NCBI RefSeq assembly: GCF_900167915.1
Contig: NZ_FUYM01000002.1
Span: forward strand, 62,001 to 126,000
DNA: 64,000 bases
Direction of reading: 5' to 3'
Source: Rhizorhabdus histidinilytica
GTDB lineage: Bacteria > Pseudomonadota > Alphaproteobacteria > Sphingomonadales > Sphingomonadaceae
The notes beneath the pieces are model-generated. The model made no database searches, was not told the origin of the DNA, and saw only the letters and a list, made by a program, of their open reading frames with translations. Within the stretch, counting starts at the first letter, position 1, and the number at the start of each line of letters is the position of its first letter. Positions 15,788 through 22,589 of the stretch are shown here, one piece after another. A program made the position numbers and the translations under genes.

Positions 15788-17131
15788 TCAGCCATTGCCG
15801 GACGATGACGGCGCCGGGGCGATCACCGGATCGATCTTGGCACGCAGCTCGGCATATTCGGCAGCCGGAATGCTGTCGGCGACGATGCCGCCGCCCGCCC
15901 GCGCGACCAGCCGGGTCGGGGTGGCGGCGATCGACCGGATGATGATCGAGCTGTCCATCGCCCCGGTCGTCGCCAGCGCGAAGACGATCCCGAAAAAGGG
16001 GCCGCGCCCCGAATCCTCGATCGCGTCGATGATCTCGACCGCGCGGCGCTTCGGCGCTCCGGTGATCGACCCACCCGGGAAGGTCGCGGCGATCAGGTCG
16101 ATCGCATCGTGCCCTGGCCGCAGCCGGCCATGGACCGCCGACACCAGGTGCCAGACCGAGGCGAAGCCTTCGAGTCGCGCGAGTTGCGAGACGGTGACGC
16201 TGCCTTCCTCGGCGACGATCGACAGGTCGTTGCGCAGCAGGTCGCAGATCATCAGATTCTCGGCCCGGTCCTTGGCCGACCGGGCGAGCCGCTCGCCGTT
16301 CCGCCGGTCCTCGCCGGGGTCGGCGGCACGGGGGGCGGTGCCCTTGATCGGCCGGGTCTCGATCGCGCCGGCCGCGTCGCACTGGACGAAGCGCTCTGGC
16401 GAAGCGCTGAGCAGCGCGCGGCTCCCGCCGAGATCGAGATAAGCGGCGAACGGGGCCGGGGTGCGGTGGCGCAGCGCGCGATAGGCGCCGGCGAGCGAGA
16501 GACCCGGCGGCCGGTCGGCGACGAAGCGGGTGCTGATGTTGGCCTGGTAGATGTCGCCCGCGGCGATGTAGGCGAGCGTCGCCGCGAGCATGGCGGCGTG
16601 GCGTTCGGGGCCGGTCTCCTCGATCCAGCGCAGGGGCGGCGTCGCCGCTTCGGTGGTGGGCGCGGCGGCGCCGAGCAGGTCATCGATTCGCTCGTCGGCG
16701 CTCATGTCGGCACGGGGCCGGGCAAAGGCCCAACAGCGGCGTGCCTGATGATCGAAGCCGAGGACCAGATCGTAGCGGCGCACGACCAGCACCGGCAGCT
16801 CGGGATCGTGCGGGTGTCGGCTGGCGACGCCCAGCGCGCTCGGGCCCAGCTCGTAAGATAGCAGGCCGATCAGCCCGCCGGTGAAGGGCAACGGCCCTTG
16901 CGCATGATCGGGCCGATGCAGATGGCGCAGTGCCGCCAGCGCGTCGTCTATCGAGCCGCCGGCGAGGATGACCTCCTCGGCCGGGTCGACCGCGACATAG
17001 GAGGCCGCCGAGCGTGGATCGCCCTCGGCGGCGCTGTCGAGGAAGGCGATGCCCGGCCGGTCGGCCAGCCGGGCGAACCAGTCGGCGGGATCGTTCCAGG
17101 GCAACTGCCGGATCGTCAGCGGCCCACTCAT
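15788..17131 (-). CDS. pabB: Aminodeoxychorismate synthase component I
   Basis: A 447-residue chorismate-utilising enzyme. With a glutamine amidotransferase partner (PabA/TrpG, not seen here) it converts chorismate to 4-amino-4-deoxychorismate for folate synthesis. The C-terminal half has the family core: ETRPIKGTAPR with the catalytic Lys, ENLMICDLLRNDLS, FPGGSITGAPKRRA and RAGGGIVADS. The PIKGT motif favours PabB over TrpE, where this residue differs. The ATG at 17131 overlaps the stop of the upstream nucleotidyltransferase gene (ATGA), so translation is coupled to the HPr-rel-A genes, an unexpected partner for a folate enzyme. Confidence 0.9.
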   Translation of the reverse strand: MSGPLTIRQLPWNDPADWFARLADRPGIAFLDSAAEGDPRSAASYVAVDPAEEVILAGGSIDDALAALRHLHRPDHAQGPLPFTGGLIGLLSYELGPSALGVASRHPHDPELPVLVVRRYDLVLGFDHQARRCWAFARPRADMSADERIDDLLGAAAPTTEAATPPLRWIEETGPERHAAMLAATLAYIAAGDIYQANISTRFVADRPPGLSLAGAYRALRHRTPAPFAAYLDLGGSRALLSASPERFVQCDAAGAIETRPIKGTAPRAADPGEDRRNGERLARSAKDRAENLMICDLLRNDLSIVAEEGSVTVSQLARLEGFASVWHLVSAVHGRLRPGHDAIDLIAATFPGGSITGAPKRRAVEIIDAIEDSGRGPFFGIVFALATTGAMDSSIIIRSIAATPTRLVARAGGGIVADSIPAAEYAELRAKIDPVIAPAPSSSGNG

Positions 17132-18141
17132 TTCGCCCGCGCCTTGATCCACAGGTGGCGGGCCAGCATCAGCGGCGGCATCCGCATCCAGTGCGAACGG
17201 ACATAGAAGCCGAGCCGGTTGAATGGGCGGATGGAGCGGCCCCAGCCGTCGCGCGCCAGCAGGCGCCGGACGAACAATGTGTCGCGCATCCGGTCATGGC
17301 CGGCGAGGCGCGGTTCGACCGGTGTCGCGAACAGCCGGTCGGCGAGGCGCAGAGCCAGGGCGACCGGCTCGATCATCTGATGCCGGCGCGCGCGTGCGTC
17401 GAGCCGCGCCCAGAAGCCGGGCGCCGCCGCGAACAGGCGCAGCAGCCGATCGACGTCCCACAGGTTGCGCAGCCCGCCGGCCAGGTCGCCGTCGGCGAAC
17501 AAATGGGTGGCGGCATGAACGATCATGTCGGCAGGGGAGAGGATGCGGAGCCCCGGTGCCACCTCGACGCTATCCTCGATCAGCGCGGCGGCGTCCGGCC
17601 GGCGCCGCGCGGTCAACGGCAGGATGCTGTGGTGGACGTCGATCATGCTGCCGCGATCGCGATGCACCAGCGGCGGCAACTCGTGCATCCAGCGGCGATA
17701 ATAGGCCTGGCTGTAATCATCGTCCTTCGCCCATTCGAAGCCGGCGGCGAGCAGCGCCGCTTCGGCCTCGTCGAGCCGCTCGCGCGGCAGCAATATGTCG
17801 AGGTCGCCGACCACGCGGCCGATCGCGGCGGGCAGCCCGGCAAAGGCGAAGGCGCTGCCCTTGAGCAGGATCGGGGCGATGCCGAGCGGGGCGAGCGCGC
17901 GGCGCGCCATCTCTACCTCCCACAGCGCCTGGGTCCGGCCGAATTCGGCCTGCGCGCGGGCGTCCTCCAGGGCGCGGGCGACCGGCGCCGGCAGCGGCAT
18001 GTCGGCGAGGCGATAGGCGAGGCTGCCGTCGAGCCGCTCGGCGCGGGCGATGGCGAGCAGGCTCGTCCAGCCATCGGGCGCGAGGCCGAGCGTCGAGACG
18101 GGATCGGCCAGCGCGGTCGCCAGTGCGCGCGCATCCTTCAT
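17128..18141 (-). CDS. Nucleotidyltransferase family protein (NTP_transf_5 type) of HPr-rel-A system
   Basis: A 337-residue protein of the uncharacterised nucleotidyltransferase family. The motif pair is APILLKGSAFAFAG (about residues 88-101) and VGDLDILLP (about 112-120, the two metal-binding Asp), followed by SMIDVHHSIL with a third acidic residue. Such proteins accompany HprK-like kinases and PqqD-like peptide carriers in lasso-peptide-like and HPr-rel-A loci. The reaction, probably nucleotidyl transfer to a protein or small molecule, is not known. The start at 18141 is ten bases after the kinase stop; the gene ends overlapping pabB. Confidence 0.8.
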   Translation of the reverse strand: MKDARALATALADPVSTLGLAPDGWTSLLAIARAERLDGSLAYRLADMPLPAPVARALEDARAQAEFGRTQALWEVEMARRALAPLGIAPILLKGSAFAFAGLPAAIGRVVGDLDILLPRERLDEAEAALLAAGFEWAKDDDYSQAYYRRWMHELPPLVHRDRGSMIDVHHSILPLTARRRPDAAALIEDSVEVAPGLRILSPADMIVHAATHLFADGDLAGGLRNLWDVDRLLRLFAAAPGFWARLDARARRHQMIEPVALALRLADRLFATPVEPRLAGHDRMRDTLFVRRLLARDGWGRSIRPFNRLGFYVRSHWMRMPPLMLARHLWIKARAK

Positions 18142-18151
18142 GGCCAGGGCC

Positions 18152-19018
18152 TCACAGGCCGGCCTCGGCGCAGAACTGCTCGACGATCGCGATGCCGCTG
18201 TCGGTGTCGGGATAGGCGAAGCGCGCGGCCGGGATCGTCTCGACGATCCGCAGCACATGGTCGAAGGCCGGCTCGCCGAGGGCGATATAGTTGGTCGATC
18301 CCTCGGTCAGCCGCATGAACAGCTCGGACCGGCTGACCCCGTCGCTCGCCGGCTCGAACCCGTAGGAGGGGAACAGGATCAGCGCCGGCTCGGCCGGTTC
18401 GTCCATCCGCGCGATCGCCTCCGCATTGGGGCGCAGGTGGCGCAGCTCGCCCTTGGGCGTGGCGCTCAGATGCGGGCCGAAGCGGGCGGGATCGGCGACC
18501 CGCGCCTCGGCCTCGGCGATCGCGCTGTTCTTCAGGCTGATCGCGCGAGGGAAGGGGATCAGCCGGCCGGTCGCCAGGTCGATCATCACGAATTCGTCCG
18601 CCAGCAGCCGCCAGCCGCGTTCGGCGAGCAGCGCGGCGAGGGTCGATTTGCCCGAGCCGGAGTCGCCGGGCATGATCAGCGCCTTGCCGCCGCGCTCGAC
18701 CGCCGAGGCGTGGATCAGCAGGTGGCGGCACTCGCCGAGCGCGACCTGCATGTTCATCGCCATCTCGATCGCCAGCAGGGCGTGGCCGAACGCCATCGGC
18801 ACCGTGTCGGGCAGGTTGTGGTCGCCTTCGATCGCGACCTGCGGGCGGATCCAGCGGCGCCAGGGGCGTGGTGGGCCGATCCGCGCCGTCACCGTGGCGA
18901 TGCCGTCGGCCGGCGCGGGATAGCCGGCATAGAGGCGGCGCAGCACCGCGATCGGCGCGGCCCAGGCCGACCCGATCCGGTAGGATATCGGCCCCACGCG
19001 GACGTCGAAACCGTGCAT
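18152..19018 (-). CDS. HprK-related kinase A
   Basis: A 288-residue relative of HPr serine kinase/phosphorylase. The central block has LLIHASAV (His 103) followed by the Walker A loop PGDSGSGKST (about 117-126) and LLADEFVMIDLATG, the HprK-type nucleotide fold. A basic-acidic substrate region follows (PFPRAISLKNSAI). No PTS HPr gene is adjacent, so the phosphoacceptor is probably not classical HPr; related kinases in lasso-peptide clusters phosphorylate a peptide Ser. The ATG at 19018 shares a base with the stop of the PqqD-like gene. The family is well supported; the substrate is unknown. Confidence 0.85.
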   Translation of the reverse strand: MHGFDVRVGPISYRIGSAWAAPIAVLRRLYAGYPAPADGIATVTARIGPPRPWRRWIRPQVAIEGDHNLPDTVPMAFGHALLAIEMAMNMQVALGECRHLLIHASAVERGGKALIMPGDSGSGKSTLAALLAERGWRLLADEFVMIDLATGRLIPFPRAISLKNSAIAEAEARVADPARFGPHLSATPKGELRHLRPNAEAIARMDEPAEPALILFPSYGFEPASDGVSRSELFMRLTEGSTNYIALGEPAFDHVLRIVETIPAARFAYPDTDSGIAIVEQFCAEAGL

Positions 19019-19299
19019 CAGCCGACCTCGACCAGGCCGATGCCGGCGAGATCGGTCAGCCGCGCCTCGACCACGGCGCGCGCCTCCGCGTCCTCGGGGA
19101 GGCCGAGCGTCGCGCAGAGCGAGGTCGTCAGCCGCGCCGCATCCATCGGCTTGGCGGCGAGCAGCGCCAGCATCTGGGGCAGCGGGCTGTCGAGGAAATG
19201 GGTCGCGCCGGACGGCCGATGGAAGACAAGGGTCATCCCGTCGATCGGGTGCGTCCGGCAATGCTGGGGGAAATCAGTGCGGTAGGTCGGCGTGGTCAC
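19018..19299 (-). CDS. PqqD family protein, HPr-rel-A system peptide chaperone
   Basis: A 93-residue small winged-helix-like protein. The N-terminal half (HPIDGMTLVFHRPSGATHFL) and the central LLAAKPMDAARL and C-terminal VEARLTDLAGIGLVEV match the PqqD / RiPP-recognition-element fold, which binds leader peptides and presents them to modifying enzymes. It lies between a Tat-signal protein (22 bases upstream) and the HprK-like kinase (overlapping TGATG), so it could deliver one to the other. That link is inference from order; no binding motif is defined. Confidence 0.8.
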   Translation of the reverse strand: MTTPTYRTDFPQHCRTHPIDGMTLVFHRPSGATHFLDSPLPQMLALLAAKPMDAARLTTSLCATLGLPEDAEARAVVEARLTDLAGIGLVEVG

Positions 19300-19321
19300 C
19301 GGTCAGCCTTGGCCGGCCGCC

Positions 19322-19762
19322 TTACTGGCGGCTCGGACTCTGCAGCGAGGCATAGCAGGTATAGCCCTGTTTCCCCATGGTCAGCTTCTTGATGTAATTA
19401 TTGTAGGCGTTGGTCTGCTGCGAGGTGTAGCCCGGATAGTTGGTGCCGTACTTCAGCGAATTCTTGACGTCCTCGCCGCTCAGCGGCTGCGACGGCGGCG
19501 GATAGCTGTTACCGGTGTTGGGGTTCACCACGTCGCCGTTGTTCTTGATCCACTTGTTCGGCTGGGTGGATTGCGGCACCGGGATCTGACAGGTCAGCGC
19601 CGAGACGGCGGCGTGGGCGATGCCGGGGCGGACCGTCACCACGGCGGCGGTGCCGAGCGCACCGATCCGCAGCATCGCGCGGCGCGTCTGCGCGGTCTCC
19701 GCTTCCCCGGGCGCGGCGGCGGCGGGCCGCTCCGCTTCGGGCTGATCGTCCTCGTTACGCAT
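19322..19762 (-). CDS. Tat-signal exported protein at head of HPr-rel-A operon (unknown function)
   Basis: A 146-residue protein I do not recognise. Residues 1-25 are acidic/Ala-Pro rich; then comes a twin-arginine signal (TRRAMLRIGALGTAAVVTV) ending AHA (residues 49-51) before AVSAL. The mature part is about 95 residues, rich in Asn, Gln, Ser, Thr, Tyr and Pro, with exactly two cysteines (C58 and C136) and a polar C-terminus ending SLQSPSRQ. It is the first gene of the operon with a PqqD-like carrier, HprK-like kinase and nucleotidyltransferase, making it the obvious candidate substrate. A GGGGGA purine stretch precedes the ATG at 19762. Confidence 0.7.
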   Translation of the reverse strand: MRNEDDQPEAERPAAAAPGEAETAQTRRAMLRIGALGTAAVVTVRPGIAHAAVSALTCQIPVPQSTQPNKWIKNNGDVVNPNTGNSYPPPSQPLSGEDVKNSLKYGTNYPGYTSQQTNAYNNYIKKLTMGKQGYTCYASLQSPSRQ

Positions 19763-19878: not shown

Positions 19879-21123
19879 ATGAAGCATGAACCGCTGCCGG
19901 ATATCGGCGAGGACGAGGTCGTGAAGCGGCGCGGCAGGGGCCTGCGTGCCGCCGTGGCGTTCGGGCTGGTGGCGGTGGCCGCCTGGCTGCTGTCGGCGCC
20001 GATGGCAGCGGCACTGGTGGTCGGCGTGATCGCGGCCTTCTTCGCCTGGATGCCGGCGGTGTCGCCGTACGAGCCGCCGGCGCTGATTCCCGCCCCGGTG
20101 CTCGACATGCCCGACCGCACCCAGGAGGTCATCGACGCCGTCGACGACGCGCTGCTGATCATCGAGCGGCAGCGGATCGTGACCGCCAACGACGCCGCCC
20201 GGCGTCTGTTCGGGGCGGAACGGGTGGAAGGCGATTTCCGGCTGGCGCTGCGGCATCCCGCGGCCGCCGACCTGATCACCTCCGACCGCGACGTCGATTC
20301 CCCGATCGAGATCGCGGGGATCGGCGACGCCGACCGGCGATGGGCGATGAGCGTCCGAGCCATCGCCGGGGGCGCCAAGCTGGTCACCCTGCGCGACCGC
20401 ACCGAAAGCTGGATCGCCGAGCGGATGCGTGTCGATTTTGTCGCCAATGCCAGCCATGAGCTGCGCACGCCGCTGGCGACGATCATCGGCTTCATCGAGA
20501 CGCTGGGCGAGGGCGGCGGTGCCGAGGACGCGGCGATCCGGGAACGTTTCCTGGGCATCATGATGGGCGAGGCGAAGCGCATGCAGCAGCTCGTCGACGA
20601 CCTGATCTCGCTGTCGCGGATCGAGGCCGATCGGTTCTCGACGCCGCAGACCCCGCTCGCGCTGGGCCCCGTCGTCGAGGAGGTGGTGGGCGTGATCCGC
20701 TCGGGCATGCGCGACGACGGCGACCGGATCGAGCTGACCATCGCCCGCGTTCCCGAGGTGCGCGCCGATCGCGTCCAGATCGCCCAGCTGCTCCACAACC
20801 TGATCGGCAACTCGATCAAATATGGCAGGGCGGGGACGCCGATCCGGGTGCTGCTGGATTCGATGCAGGGCAAGGTGCGGCTCAGGGTGGCCGACGAGGG
20901 CGAGGGGGTCGCGGCCGAGCATCTGCCGCGCCTGACCGAGCGCTTCTACCGGGTCGATGCGGGCCGCAGCCGGTCGATCGGCGGAACCGGCCTCGGCCTG
21001 GCGATCGTCAAGCATATCGCCGAACGGCATCGGGCGGTGCTCGACATCGCGTCGCGGGTCGGAAAAGGCACGACCGTGACTGTCACATTTCCGGCCTTGT
21101 TGCCCGATGCATTGTCATCATAG
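19879..21123 (+). CDS. phoR: Phosphate regulon sensor histidine kinase
   Basis: A 414-residue membrane histidine kinase. Two N-terminal hydrophobic helices (about 23-58) precede a PAS-like region (about 80-170). Then follow the H-box ASHELRTPLATIIGF with phospho-acceptor His193, the N-box LLHNLIGNSIKYG, and G-boxes DEGEGVA and GGTGLGLAIVKHI. In the family PhoR phosphorylates PhoB when phosphate is scarce. It stands immediately before phoU and phoB. A TATAAT lies at 19865-19870 but with no clear -35. Divergent from the Tat-protein operon. Confidence 0.9.
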   Translation: MKHEPLPDIGEDEVVKRRGRGLRAAVAFGLVAVAAWLLSAPMAAALVVGVIAAFFAWMPAVSPYEPPALIPAPVLDMPDRTQEVIDAVDDALLIIERQRIVTANDAARRLFGAERVEGDFRLALRHPAAADLITSDRDVDSPIEIAGIGDADRRWAMSVRAIAGGAKLVTLRDRTESWIAERMRVDFVANASHELRTPLATIIGFIETLGEGGGAEDAAIRERFLGIMMGEAKRMQQLVDDLISLSRIEADRFSTPQTPLALGPVVEEVVGVIRSGMRDDGDRIELTIARVPEVRADRVQIAQLLHNLIGNSIKYGRAGTPIRVLLDSMQGKVRLRVADEGEGVAAEHLPRLTERFYRVDAGRSRSIGGTGLGLAIVKHIAERHRAVLDIASRVGKGTTVTVTFPALLPDALSS

Positions 21124-21192: not shown

Positions 21193-21891
21193 ATGGCATC
21201 GGGACATACCGTCAAGGCGTTCGACGAGGATCTCGGCCAGCTCAGGGCGCTGATCTCGGAGATGGGCGGCCGCGCCGAGGCCGCCATCACCGGCGCGCTC
21301 GAGGCGCTGGTCAATCGTGATCTCGAATCCGCGGTCCGCATCGTCGAGGGCGACCGCAGGATCGACGAGCTGGAAGCCGAGGTCGAGCGCCAGGTGGTGC
21401 GGCTGATCGCGCTGCGCGCGCCGATGGCCGACGACCTGCGGGAGGTGCTCGCCGCGCTCAAGATCGCCGGCGTGGTCGAGCGGATGGGCGACTATGCCAA
21501 GAACATCGCCAAGCGGATCGCGCTGCTCCAGGAAGCGCGCGGCATGGAGGCGATGGCGGTGCTGCCGGCGATGGGCAAGATCGCGGCGGAGATGGTGCGC
21601 AACGTGCTCGACGCCTTCGTGCTGCGCGATGCCGAGGCGGCGATGGCCGTGGCCGCGCGCGACCGGGCAGTCGACGATTTCTACAACAGCCTGTTCCGCA
21701 CGCTGCTCACCTACATGATGGAAAATCCGCACAATATCACGGCGTCGACGCATCTGCTGTTCATCGCCAAGAATATCGAGCGGATCGGCGACCATGCCAC
21801 CAACGTCGCCGAAATGGTCTATTTCGCGGCGACCGGCCACCAGATGGCGGAACGCGCCAAGGGCGAAGACCCGCTCAGCGGAGATATTTGA
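21193..21891 (+). CDS. phoU: Phosphate-specific transport system accessory protein PhoU
   Basis: A 232-residue all-helical protein of two repeated three-helix domains. The family motifs are visible in both halves (ALRAPMADDLREVLAALKIA with GDYAKNIAKR, and FIAKNIERIGDHATNVAEMV). PhoU links the transporter to PhoR and represses the regulon when phosphate is plentiful. An 'aagggaagtgaagcg' purine stretch precedes the ATG. The stop overlaps the phoB start (TGATG). The usual pstSCAB genes that would sit between phoR and phoU are absent. Confidence 0.93.
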   Translation: MASGHTVKAFDEDLGQLRALISEMGGRAEAAITGALEALVNRDLESAVRIVEGDRRIDELEAEVERQVVRLIALRAPMADDLREVLAALKIAGVVERMGDYAKNIAKRIALLQEARGMEAMAVLPAMGKIAAEMVRNVLDAFVLRDAEAAMAVAARDRAVDDFYNSLFRTLLTYMMENPHNITASTHLLFIAKNIERIGDHATNVAEMVYFAATGHQMAERAKGEDPLSGDI

Positions 21892-22589
21892 TGGCACGTG
21901 CCCGGGTACTGCTTGTCGAAGACGATGCGGCGCTCGCCGAACTGGTCAGCTGGCACCTCGAGCGCGAGGATTTCGAGGTCGAACGCACCGCCGACGGCGA
22001 GGAGGCGATCCTGCTGGCGCGCGAGACCCCGCCCGATCTGGTGCTGCTCGACTGGATGATCGAAGGCGTCTCGGGGATCGAGGTGTGCCGCCGGCTGCGC
22101 CGCCTGCCCGACACCGCGAACGTACCGATCATCATGCTCACCGCCCGCGGCGAGGAGGAGGATCGCGTCCGCGGCCTCGAAACCGGCGCCGACGACTATG
22201 TCACCAAGCCGTTCAGCCCGCGCGAGCTGGTCGCGCGCGTCGGCGCGGTGCTGCGCCGCGTCCGCCCGGCGTTGGCCGGCGAGCGACTGTCCTATGCCGA
22301 CATCGAGATGGACACCGCCAGCCACCGCGTCCGCCGCGGCGGCGCGCCGATCAGCCTCGGGCCGACCGAGTTCCGCCTGCTCAAGCATTTCCTCGAGCAT
22401 CCCGGTCGCGTATTCTCGCGCGAGCGGCTGCTCGATTCGGTATGGGGCCGCGACAGCGACATCGAGCCCCGCACGGTCGACGTCCATATCCGGCGCTTGC
22501 GCAAGGCGATCAACCTGGCCGATTCGCCCGACCTGATCCGCACCGTCCGCTCCGCGGGCTACGCCCTCGACAGCGAAGGCATCGTCTGA
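21891..22589 (+). CDS. phoB: Phosphate regulon response regulator
   Basis: A 232-residue OmpR/PhoB-class response regulator. The receiver domain has the acidic pair ED-D at 10-12, phospho-acceptor Asp54 in VLLDWMIEG, and the conserved Lys in DDYVTKPFSPREL. The C-terminal winged helix contains EFRLLKHFLEHPGRVFSRE and RTVDVHIRRLRKAI. The true start is the ATG at 21891, which shares its A with the phoU stop, so the two are translationally coupled. Phosphorylated PhoB activates phosphate-starvation genes in the family. Confidence 0.93.
   Translation: MARARVLLVEDDAALAELVSWHLEREDFEVERTADGEEAILLARETPPDLVLLDWMIEGVSGIEVCRRLRRLPDTANVPIIMLTARGEEEDRVRGLETGADDYVTKPFSPRELVARVGAVLRRVRPALAGERLSYADIEMDTASHRVRRGGAPISLGPTEFRLLKHFLEHPGRVFSRERLLDSVWGRDSDIEPRTVDVHIRRLRKAINLADSPDLIRTVRSAGYALDSEGIV

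Follow-up and report, generated by a model that had tools for sequence, protein, structure and literature searches.

Candidate phospho-tailoring of a Tat-signal protein by an HPr-rel-A operon in sphingomonads and other proteobacteria

The HprK-like kinases PadeK, ThcoK, SyanK and PsmK phosphorylate a serine of their precursor peptides, and PsmN, an enzyme annotated as a nucleotidyltransferase, is required for the placement of hexoses on that serine (PMC9266682). The B1 protein PadeB1 binds its own leader with a Kd of ~5 nM (PMC9266682, PMC5067487), and LppK adds 1-4 phosphates to Ser3 of the core in a system that also includes a leader-binding recognition element (RRE) of ribosomally synthesized and post-translationally modified peptides (RiPPs) and a nucleoside triphosphate (NTP) transferase (PMC13381572). 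Here we examine a stretch of 64,000 nucleotides from Rhizorhabdus histidinilytica (contig NZ_FUYM01000002.1, positions 62,001 to 126,000; hereinafter the window), which contains a minus-strand operon transcribed in the order Tat-signal (twin-arginine translocation) protein, PqqD-like protein, HprK-related kinase, nucleotidyltransferase and PabB-like enzyme. The kinase and the PqqD-like protein pass the two models of the HPr-rel-A system (TIGR04352 and TIGR04353); these models name the enzymes, and the substrate is covered by no NCBIfam or Pfam model above cut-off. We consider it fairly probable that the operon encodes a RiPP-like, RRE-guided phospho-tailoring system in which the substrate is the Tat-exported protein.

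According to this proposal, the leader of the Tat protein would combine a Tat signal with a docking sequence for the PqqD-like RRE, which would deliver the precursor to the HprK-related kinase. The kinase would phosphorylate a serine once or more, at S54, adjacent to the leader, or at S139, close to the C-terminus, and the PF14907 nucleotidyltransferase would next attach a nucleotide or a sugar to the phosphate. The tailoring would occur in the cytoplasm and precede export, the decorated protein would leave via the Tat route, and a housekeeping signal peptidase would cleave the leader. The computed support consists of the operon itself, the co-inheritance of Tat protein and kinase, a special leader joined to a divergent remainder, the conservation of catalytic residues and the fact that the substrate class follows the kinase tree, to which the predicted RRE fold of the PqqD-like protein can be added.

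The co-inheritance was traced in 199 genomes drawn from the window's own family (hereinafter the family) and in a phylum sample of 398 genomes. Within the family, the kinase exceeds the TIGR04352 cut-off in 61 of the 199 genomes, and a profile built from 41 Tat proteins of kinase loci (A1) finds matches in 63 genomes at E <=0.001, including all 61 kinase genomes at E <=2.4e-11 and two kinase-less genomes with weak matches (4.8e-5, and 4.6e-4 with an internal stop); the success of A1 in the kinase genomes is partly built in because the profile comes from kinase loci, whereas this reservation does not apply to the lack of matches in the other 136 genomes. Across 69 neighborhood sequences (the window stretch and 68 others), a comparison of the kind that the sequence-only reading had proposed, iterative profile searches detected the Tat protein in 62, in most cases encoded immediately upstream of the PqqD gene. 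Loci devoid of any conserved small protein, the pattern which that reading had named as adverse, are confined to seven exceptions: in three cases (L046, L048 and L065) the genome has the Tat protein elsewhere, the edge of a contig forms the start of one sequence (L101), and L064, L095 and L096 are the loci of distant kinase paralogues. The partners also persist when they are apart, the Tat gene being located ~164 kb (G042) and ~280 kb (G122) from the kinase, with the PqqD-like gene remaining at the kinase in both genomes, or, in G040, on a different contig together with a PqqD-like gene.

In the phylum sample, the kinase is over the cut-off in 61 of the 398 genomes. A profile of 14 betaproteobacterial-type substrates (A5) matches 36 of these genomes at E <=1e-9, in two of them (G664 and G734) over the N-terminal part only, and none of the 337 kinase-less ones; at 1e-3, all 39 genomes with a match have the kinase, and relaxing the limit to 0.01 adds six genomes without the kinase, their E values ranging from 0.004 to 0.01. 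The 22 kinase genomes that A5 fails to match at 1e-3 are 11 from the family, the Tat proteins of which this profile misses, and 11 others, several of which have class II substrates (see below). In G646, G685, G635 and G595, all of them fragmented assemblies, the substrate is encoded on a contig other than that of the kinase, and among the seven genomes with separated partners (these four along with G042, G122 and G040) a PqqD-like gene stands beside the substrate gene in four (G040, G685, G635 and G595). Furthermore, a second substrate gene, accompanied by a PqqD-like gene of its own, lies apart from the kinase locus in G738 (L286, 1530-2323). Retention of a PqqD-like gene at the substrate gene is what would be expected if the PqqD-like protein reads the precursor.

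Outside the family, 34 of the 40 kinase loci yielded an upstream Tat-leader protein at first reading, and a 35th substrate came from L167, a stretch that covers a PqqD-like gene without a kinase. Among the remaining six loci, the substrate of L207 was recognized later and does not enter the counts of 35 given below, an A5 match lies inside the stretch of L215, the genomes G635, G646 and G685 (loci L221, L222 and L240) encode the substrate elsewhere, and L163 remains without a substrate protein. The non-family kinase loci span 21 families, so that the drawn genomes, with the window's own family, represent 22 proteobacterial families. The Tat protein belongs to the system, and the assertion of the sequence-only reading that no classical precursor is present at the locus has to be abandoned, given that this protein is precursor-like, conserved and co-inherited with the kinase.

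What kind of protein is it? The window protein comprises a Tat-like leader at ~27-51, with an RR pair at 27-28, a hydrophobic stretch and AHA at 49-51 (AxA), and a mature domain at ~52-146 with the conserved residues S54, C58, C136 and S139; R28, L31, P46 and A49 are kept in 66-67 of the 68 aligned family proteins, and S54 and S139 in 67 each. The Tat-like leader is common to the substrates, and the remainder is highly divergent outside the class I motifs described below. In hhalign comparisons, the family leaders match those of the beta group with a probability of 95.7 (P 8.7e-9) and those of the f39 group with a probability of 93.1, as opposed to only 48.6 for class II; homology of the mature domains between groups is unsupported beyond seven C-terminal motif columns (family versus beta, P 0.0085). 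A motif located where the hydrophobic stretch ends, devised post hoc once the leaders had been viewed, is present in 56 of 63 family leaders, 20 of 32 others and none of 13 ordinary Tat leaders, loci with an unclear leader (6 of 69, 3 of 35 and 17 of 30, respectively) having been left out of the comparison. A profile derived from the L2xx loci, which almost without exception come from outside the class Alphaproteobacteria, gives the nine alphaproteobacterial L1xx leaders scores of 17.9-35.1, compared to -5.8 to 13.9 for ordinary leaders (P 5e-5), and the family leaders as a group outscore the ordinary ones (P 2e-5), with overlapping ranges. Judging from these sequence comparisons, the substrate leaders seem to exceed ordinary Tat signals. 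Against PDB, the Tat profile matched one thylakoid chain, over the leader (E 0.0092).

The substrates can be divided into two classes. Class I is defined by a C-terminal [STA]CxxS motif. With the search limited to the final 60 residues for family proteins and the final 70 for all others, this motif was found in 68 of the 69 family substrates and in 20 of the 35 from outside the family. The class I proteins also have a serine at most 6 residues before the first post-leader cysteine in 61 of 61 family proteins and 19 of 19 others, against a background of 0.41 (seven family, one class I and two class II proteins were unscorable and, together with L063, left out). Class II is the residual group of the 15 non-family substrates that lack the C-terminal motif, seven of which (L209, L210, L225, L229-L231 and L233) have an SPG[WYF] or SHGYW motif; no Pfam match above cut-off was obtained for the three that were scanned (L209, L225 and L230), and nine counterparts of the Tat protein from other loci likewise match no NCBIfam or Pfam model above cut-off. 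On a tree of 52 kinases, the substrate class changes 4 times, compared to a shuffled mean of 24.5, and a number as low was reached in 0 of 200 shuffles. From their conservation, S54 and S139 are candidate modification sites, between which we have no preference.

The catalytic residues of both enzymes are almost invariant, and the family-model matches (Table 1) agree with the sequence-only reading that the parts are those of a peptide-tailoring module composed of a leader-binding protein, an HprK-like kinase and a nucleotidyltransferase. The kinase shares the P-loop, the histidine and the acidic residues with HprK (HPr kinase/phosphorylase): H103, K124, D141 and E142 are kept in 111, 111, 111 and 110, respectively, of 111 kinases, a set delineated by scores above 150 bits on a kinase profile built for this analysis that includes near relatives and one paralogue (L064). 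An HprK from PDB matches the kinase at the P-loop with E of 6.6e-5 to 1.2e-4, and the scores of the remaining HprK-type NCBIfam models do not exceed 28.6 bits, versus 228.2 for TIGR04352. No HPr was noticed near the kinase in the 45 largest neighbor groups, on reading the first 70 residues by eye with no model applied. In the nucleotidyltransferase, K94-G95, R109, D113-x-D115 and D168 are conserved in 105 or 106 of 106 proteins, and a search of PDB with its profile yielded no credible match (best E 0.23). For the PqqD-like protein, the predicted fold resembles that of the leader-binding B1 domains of lasso peptide systems; by sequence, its profile found no RRE or PqqD in PDB (best E 0.36). At L063, the kinase, nucleotidyltransferase and Tat frames are all split, in a genome that is 86% complete and 7% contaminated, perhaps owing to decay or an assembly error.

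Several considerations weigh against the proposed tailoring system. The family proteins are related, such that the counts given above are not independent, and the clustering of substrate classes on the kinase tree could stem from species descent alone. Of 30 ordinary Tat loci, only 13 were usable as leader controls, and many family leaders score within the range of this small set; furthermore, TIGR01409, the curated Tat-signal model, gives no listed match to the window protein at E up to 1, although such a match is not in itself defining for Tat substrates. The leader motif [YW]xxPx[LVIFA] of lasso peptides and of linear polyphosphorylated peptides (LPP) is missing from the window protein and from 101 of 104 substrates, so docking would need a different motif, and no PqqD-like match was found at 12 of the 111 kinase loci, 7 of them with class II substrates. 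In class II, the N-proximal serine is present in 7 of 13 proteins, which is near the background and leaves one universal site unsupported, and the conserved serines and cysteines could be structural. The mature domain of the window protein is predicted to be folded (AlphaFold block mean pLDDT of 87-96 over residues 61-140), whereas the known cases involve short peptides, either linear or threaded; a Foldseek search of the protein against PDB gave no match with E under 4.7, which does not prove a new fold. Finally, we infer the role of the Tat protein as substrate, the chemistry, the site, the order of the steps and the export via Tat.

The gene layout of the locus is summarized in Table 1.

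Table 1. Genes of the operon and of the adjoining pho locus in the window
Feature	Coordinates	Strand	Model match
Tat-signal protein, proposed substrate, 146 amino acids	19322..19762	-	no NCBIfam/Pfam match above cut-off
PqqD-like RRE (leader-binding) protein	19018..19299	-	TIGR04353, 70.1 bits (cut-off 35)
HprK-related kinase A	18152..19018	-	TIGR04352, 228.2 bits (cut-off 200)
NTP_transf_5 nucleotidyltransferase	17128..18141	-	PF14907, 181.6 bits (cut-off 31.2)
PabB-like chorismate-binding enzyme	15788..17152	-	PF00425, 261.2 bits
PhoR-like histidine kinase	19879..21123	+	TIGR02966, 295.1 bits (under cut-off 334.2)
PhoU	21193..21891	+	TIGR02135, 227.8 bits (cut-off 130.25)
PhoB	21888..22589	+	TIGR02154, 345.8 bits (cut-off 296.2)

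The sequence-only reading described the span 15788-19762 as four genes; the four minus-strand genes that it named are real, and the span contains a fifth, the PabB-like gene, that it left unnamed. The gaps of 22 bases between the Tat and PqqD-like genes and 10 bases between the kinase and nucleotidyltransferase genes, as well as the single overlap (1 base, between the PqqD-like and kinase genes), are confirmed by the coordinates. The PabB-like protein has a best NCBIfam score of 323.3 bits, below the cut-off of 408.55, and its gene has an alternative start, an ATG at 17129, that overlaps the nucleotidyltransferase stop. It occurs in 7 of the 69 kinase-neighborhood sequences, all from the window's own clade, where it overlaps the operon end, and it is absent from L050 of the same genus; its membership in the system is ruled out on these grounds, and it is probably a passenger of the operon. 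Between 12.5 and 23.7 kb of the window, the genes are those for a DUF885 protein, an RcnB-like protein, a TetR regulator, the PabB-like enzyme, the operon, PhoR, PhoU, PhoB and one protein that matches nothing in Pfam. In this region, no SpI-like peptidase, ATP-binding cassette (ABC) exporter, asparagine-synthase-like cyclase or B2 protease was found, and the earlier statement that cyclase and protease are absent stands in the sense that no dedicated one lies beside the operon.

The best surviving alternative, although an unlikely one in our estimation, is that the kinase and its two companions modify another molecule, such as a polysaccharide precursor, a lipid or a small metabolite, and that the Tat protein binds or exports the product. 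The gene neighborhoods lend this possibility some appeal: in beta- and gammaproteobacteria, an amidotransferase group is found at 12 of the 40 non-family loci and two glycosyltransferase groups at 8 each, and one representative of each of these groups passes an NCBIfam model of the XrtA/PEP-CTERM series, a result also obtained for an export protein (L163) and a PrsT-type protein (L210), so that some of these loci look like XrtA/PEP-CTERM polysaccharide clusters. In the family, GlmU-like genes lie downstream at 36 loci and GlmS-like genes at 28 (identified by eye, with no model run), and the predicted folding of the mature domain also speaks for this alternative. The evidence on the recognition side points the other way: the predicted RRE fold implies a peptide ligand, several genomes keep the protein with this fold at the substrate gene when the kinase is elsewhere, the substrates have a leader motif beyond ordinary Tat signals, and, in the tested cases, the targets of HprK-like enzymes accompanied by an RRE and an NTP transferase are precursor peptides (PMC9266682, PMC13381572). 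Because of the XrtA/PEP-CTERM neighbors in the beta/gamma loci, a surface role of the decorated protein is plausible under the tailoring proposal, too. A possible sister system occurs near polysaccharide-export-like genes at L242 (6518-9053), with a 69-amino-acid Tat-leader-like protein, an NTP5-like protein and an HprK-like protein that has a long N-terminal part, maybe a PqqD-like domain (by eye).

The second alternative is suggested by the head-to-head arrangement of the Tat gene with phoR, which is found in 61 of the 69 sphingomonad loci and 30 of the 33 genus labels (L238 and L239 were scored as non-adjacent because their frames run over phoR, and the other misses include contig-end loci). 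The Tat gene retained phoR even in G042, G122 and G040, where the kinase is elsewhere, and at L235, a locus from another family of the order, phoR is also located beside the substrate. One could imagine a signaling device in which the kinase would reversibly phosphorylate the Tat protein, similar to the action of HprK on HPr, and the Tat protein would report the phosphate or energy status to PhoR. We view this as distinctly improbable: simple signaling needs neither a nucleotidyltransferase nor an RRE, no phoR was found in the examined stretches around the other 34 non-family substrates, and the conserved neighborhood may reflect vertical inheritance. Co-regulation by PhoB is unsupported as well, the Pho-box in 66 Tat/phoR intergenic regions scoring no better than shuffles, with a best score of 10/14 in 10 regions and none higher (for the E. 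coli-type consensus CTGTCAT N4 CTGTCAT). As for the cellular role of the tailoring system, our guess is a function in the envelope or in polysaccharide metabolism, with a link to phosphate in sphingomonads. The remaining alternative, namely, that the genes are unrelated and the operon was kept by chance and shared descent, as in the case of the PabB-like passenger, is highly improbable and we reject it on the strength of the co-occurrence in both genome samples, the persistence of both partners after separation, the lack of any strong substrate match in the kinase-less genomes of the two samples and the reappearance of the system in 21 more families among the drawn genomes.

If correct, the proposed phospho-tailoring of a Tat protein would unite RiPP leader recognition with Tat protein export, hitherto separate fields, and would extend the logic of phosphorylated RiPPs, beyond the Bacillota systems and the lasso peptides, to a target of protein size in the 22 proteobacterial families represented among the drawn genomes. 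It gives an enzyme family of no known target a concrete candidate substrate with two candidate serines, and offers an entry point to the role of the HPr-rel-A genes in XrtA/PEP-CTERM polysaccharide loci. It is possible, if somewhat doubtful, that we are dealing with a class of modification widespread in proteobacteria, in which the Tat signal would also serve as a RiPP leader, folded secreted proteins would be (poly)phosphorylated in the cytoplasm, receive a nucleotide or sugar cap there and leave the cell in the decorated state, different pairs of precursors and RREs could share one kinase and one nucleotidyltransferase, and the products would act at the surface, with polysaccharide in beta- and gammaproteobacteria and with phosphate sensing in sphingomonads.

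The sequence-only reading saw in the operon a candidate for an undescribed system, and we found no description in the literature covered, which excludes most subscription papers and bioRxiv. The phosphorylated lasso peptides paeninodin and pseudomycoidin are made with a PqqD-like B1 protein and an HprK-like serine kinase, as in the window operon (PMC9266682, PMC5067487), and pseudomycoidin also with a nucleotidyltransferase-like enzyme (PMC9266682). The conserved serine at the C-terminus of paeninodin-type lasso peptides has a possible parallel in S139. The lasso peptide systems differ in possessing a macrolactam cyclase and a B2 protease, neither of which is found beside the window operon, and the window substrate, with its Tat-like signal, is much longer than lasso precursors. 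An example of a cluster that does have a cyclase is the lasso-like one at L245 (5913-9274), in which an asparagine synthase gene is accompanied by a distant HprK-like gene, a PqqD-like match of low strength and a precursor-like frame of 49 amino acids with a terminal serine.

The LPP systems of Bacillota, described in 2026 and, together with the phosphorylated lasso peptides, the nearest known counterparts, resemble the window system in the combination of a discrete RRE, an HprK-like kinase and an NTP transferase without a cyclase; their precursors have a conserved N-terminus and a highly variable C-terminus, as do the Tat substrates; polysaccharide genes lie near their loci, too; and the modified Ser3 of the core is located directly past the leader, in a position comparable to that of S54 (PMC13381572). 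The differences are in the dedicated SpI-like peptidase and ABC exporter of LPP, neither of which lies beside the window operon, in the leader, which has a YxxP motif in LPP and is Tat-like here, and in the substrate, a peptide in LPP and a predicted folded domain in the window system (PMC13381572). In the main text of that paper, no word begins with proteobacter, pseudomonadota, sphingo, tat or pqqd. The window system would work in an LPP-like manner, yet by the leader and gene-content features tested it is not a member of LPP.

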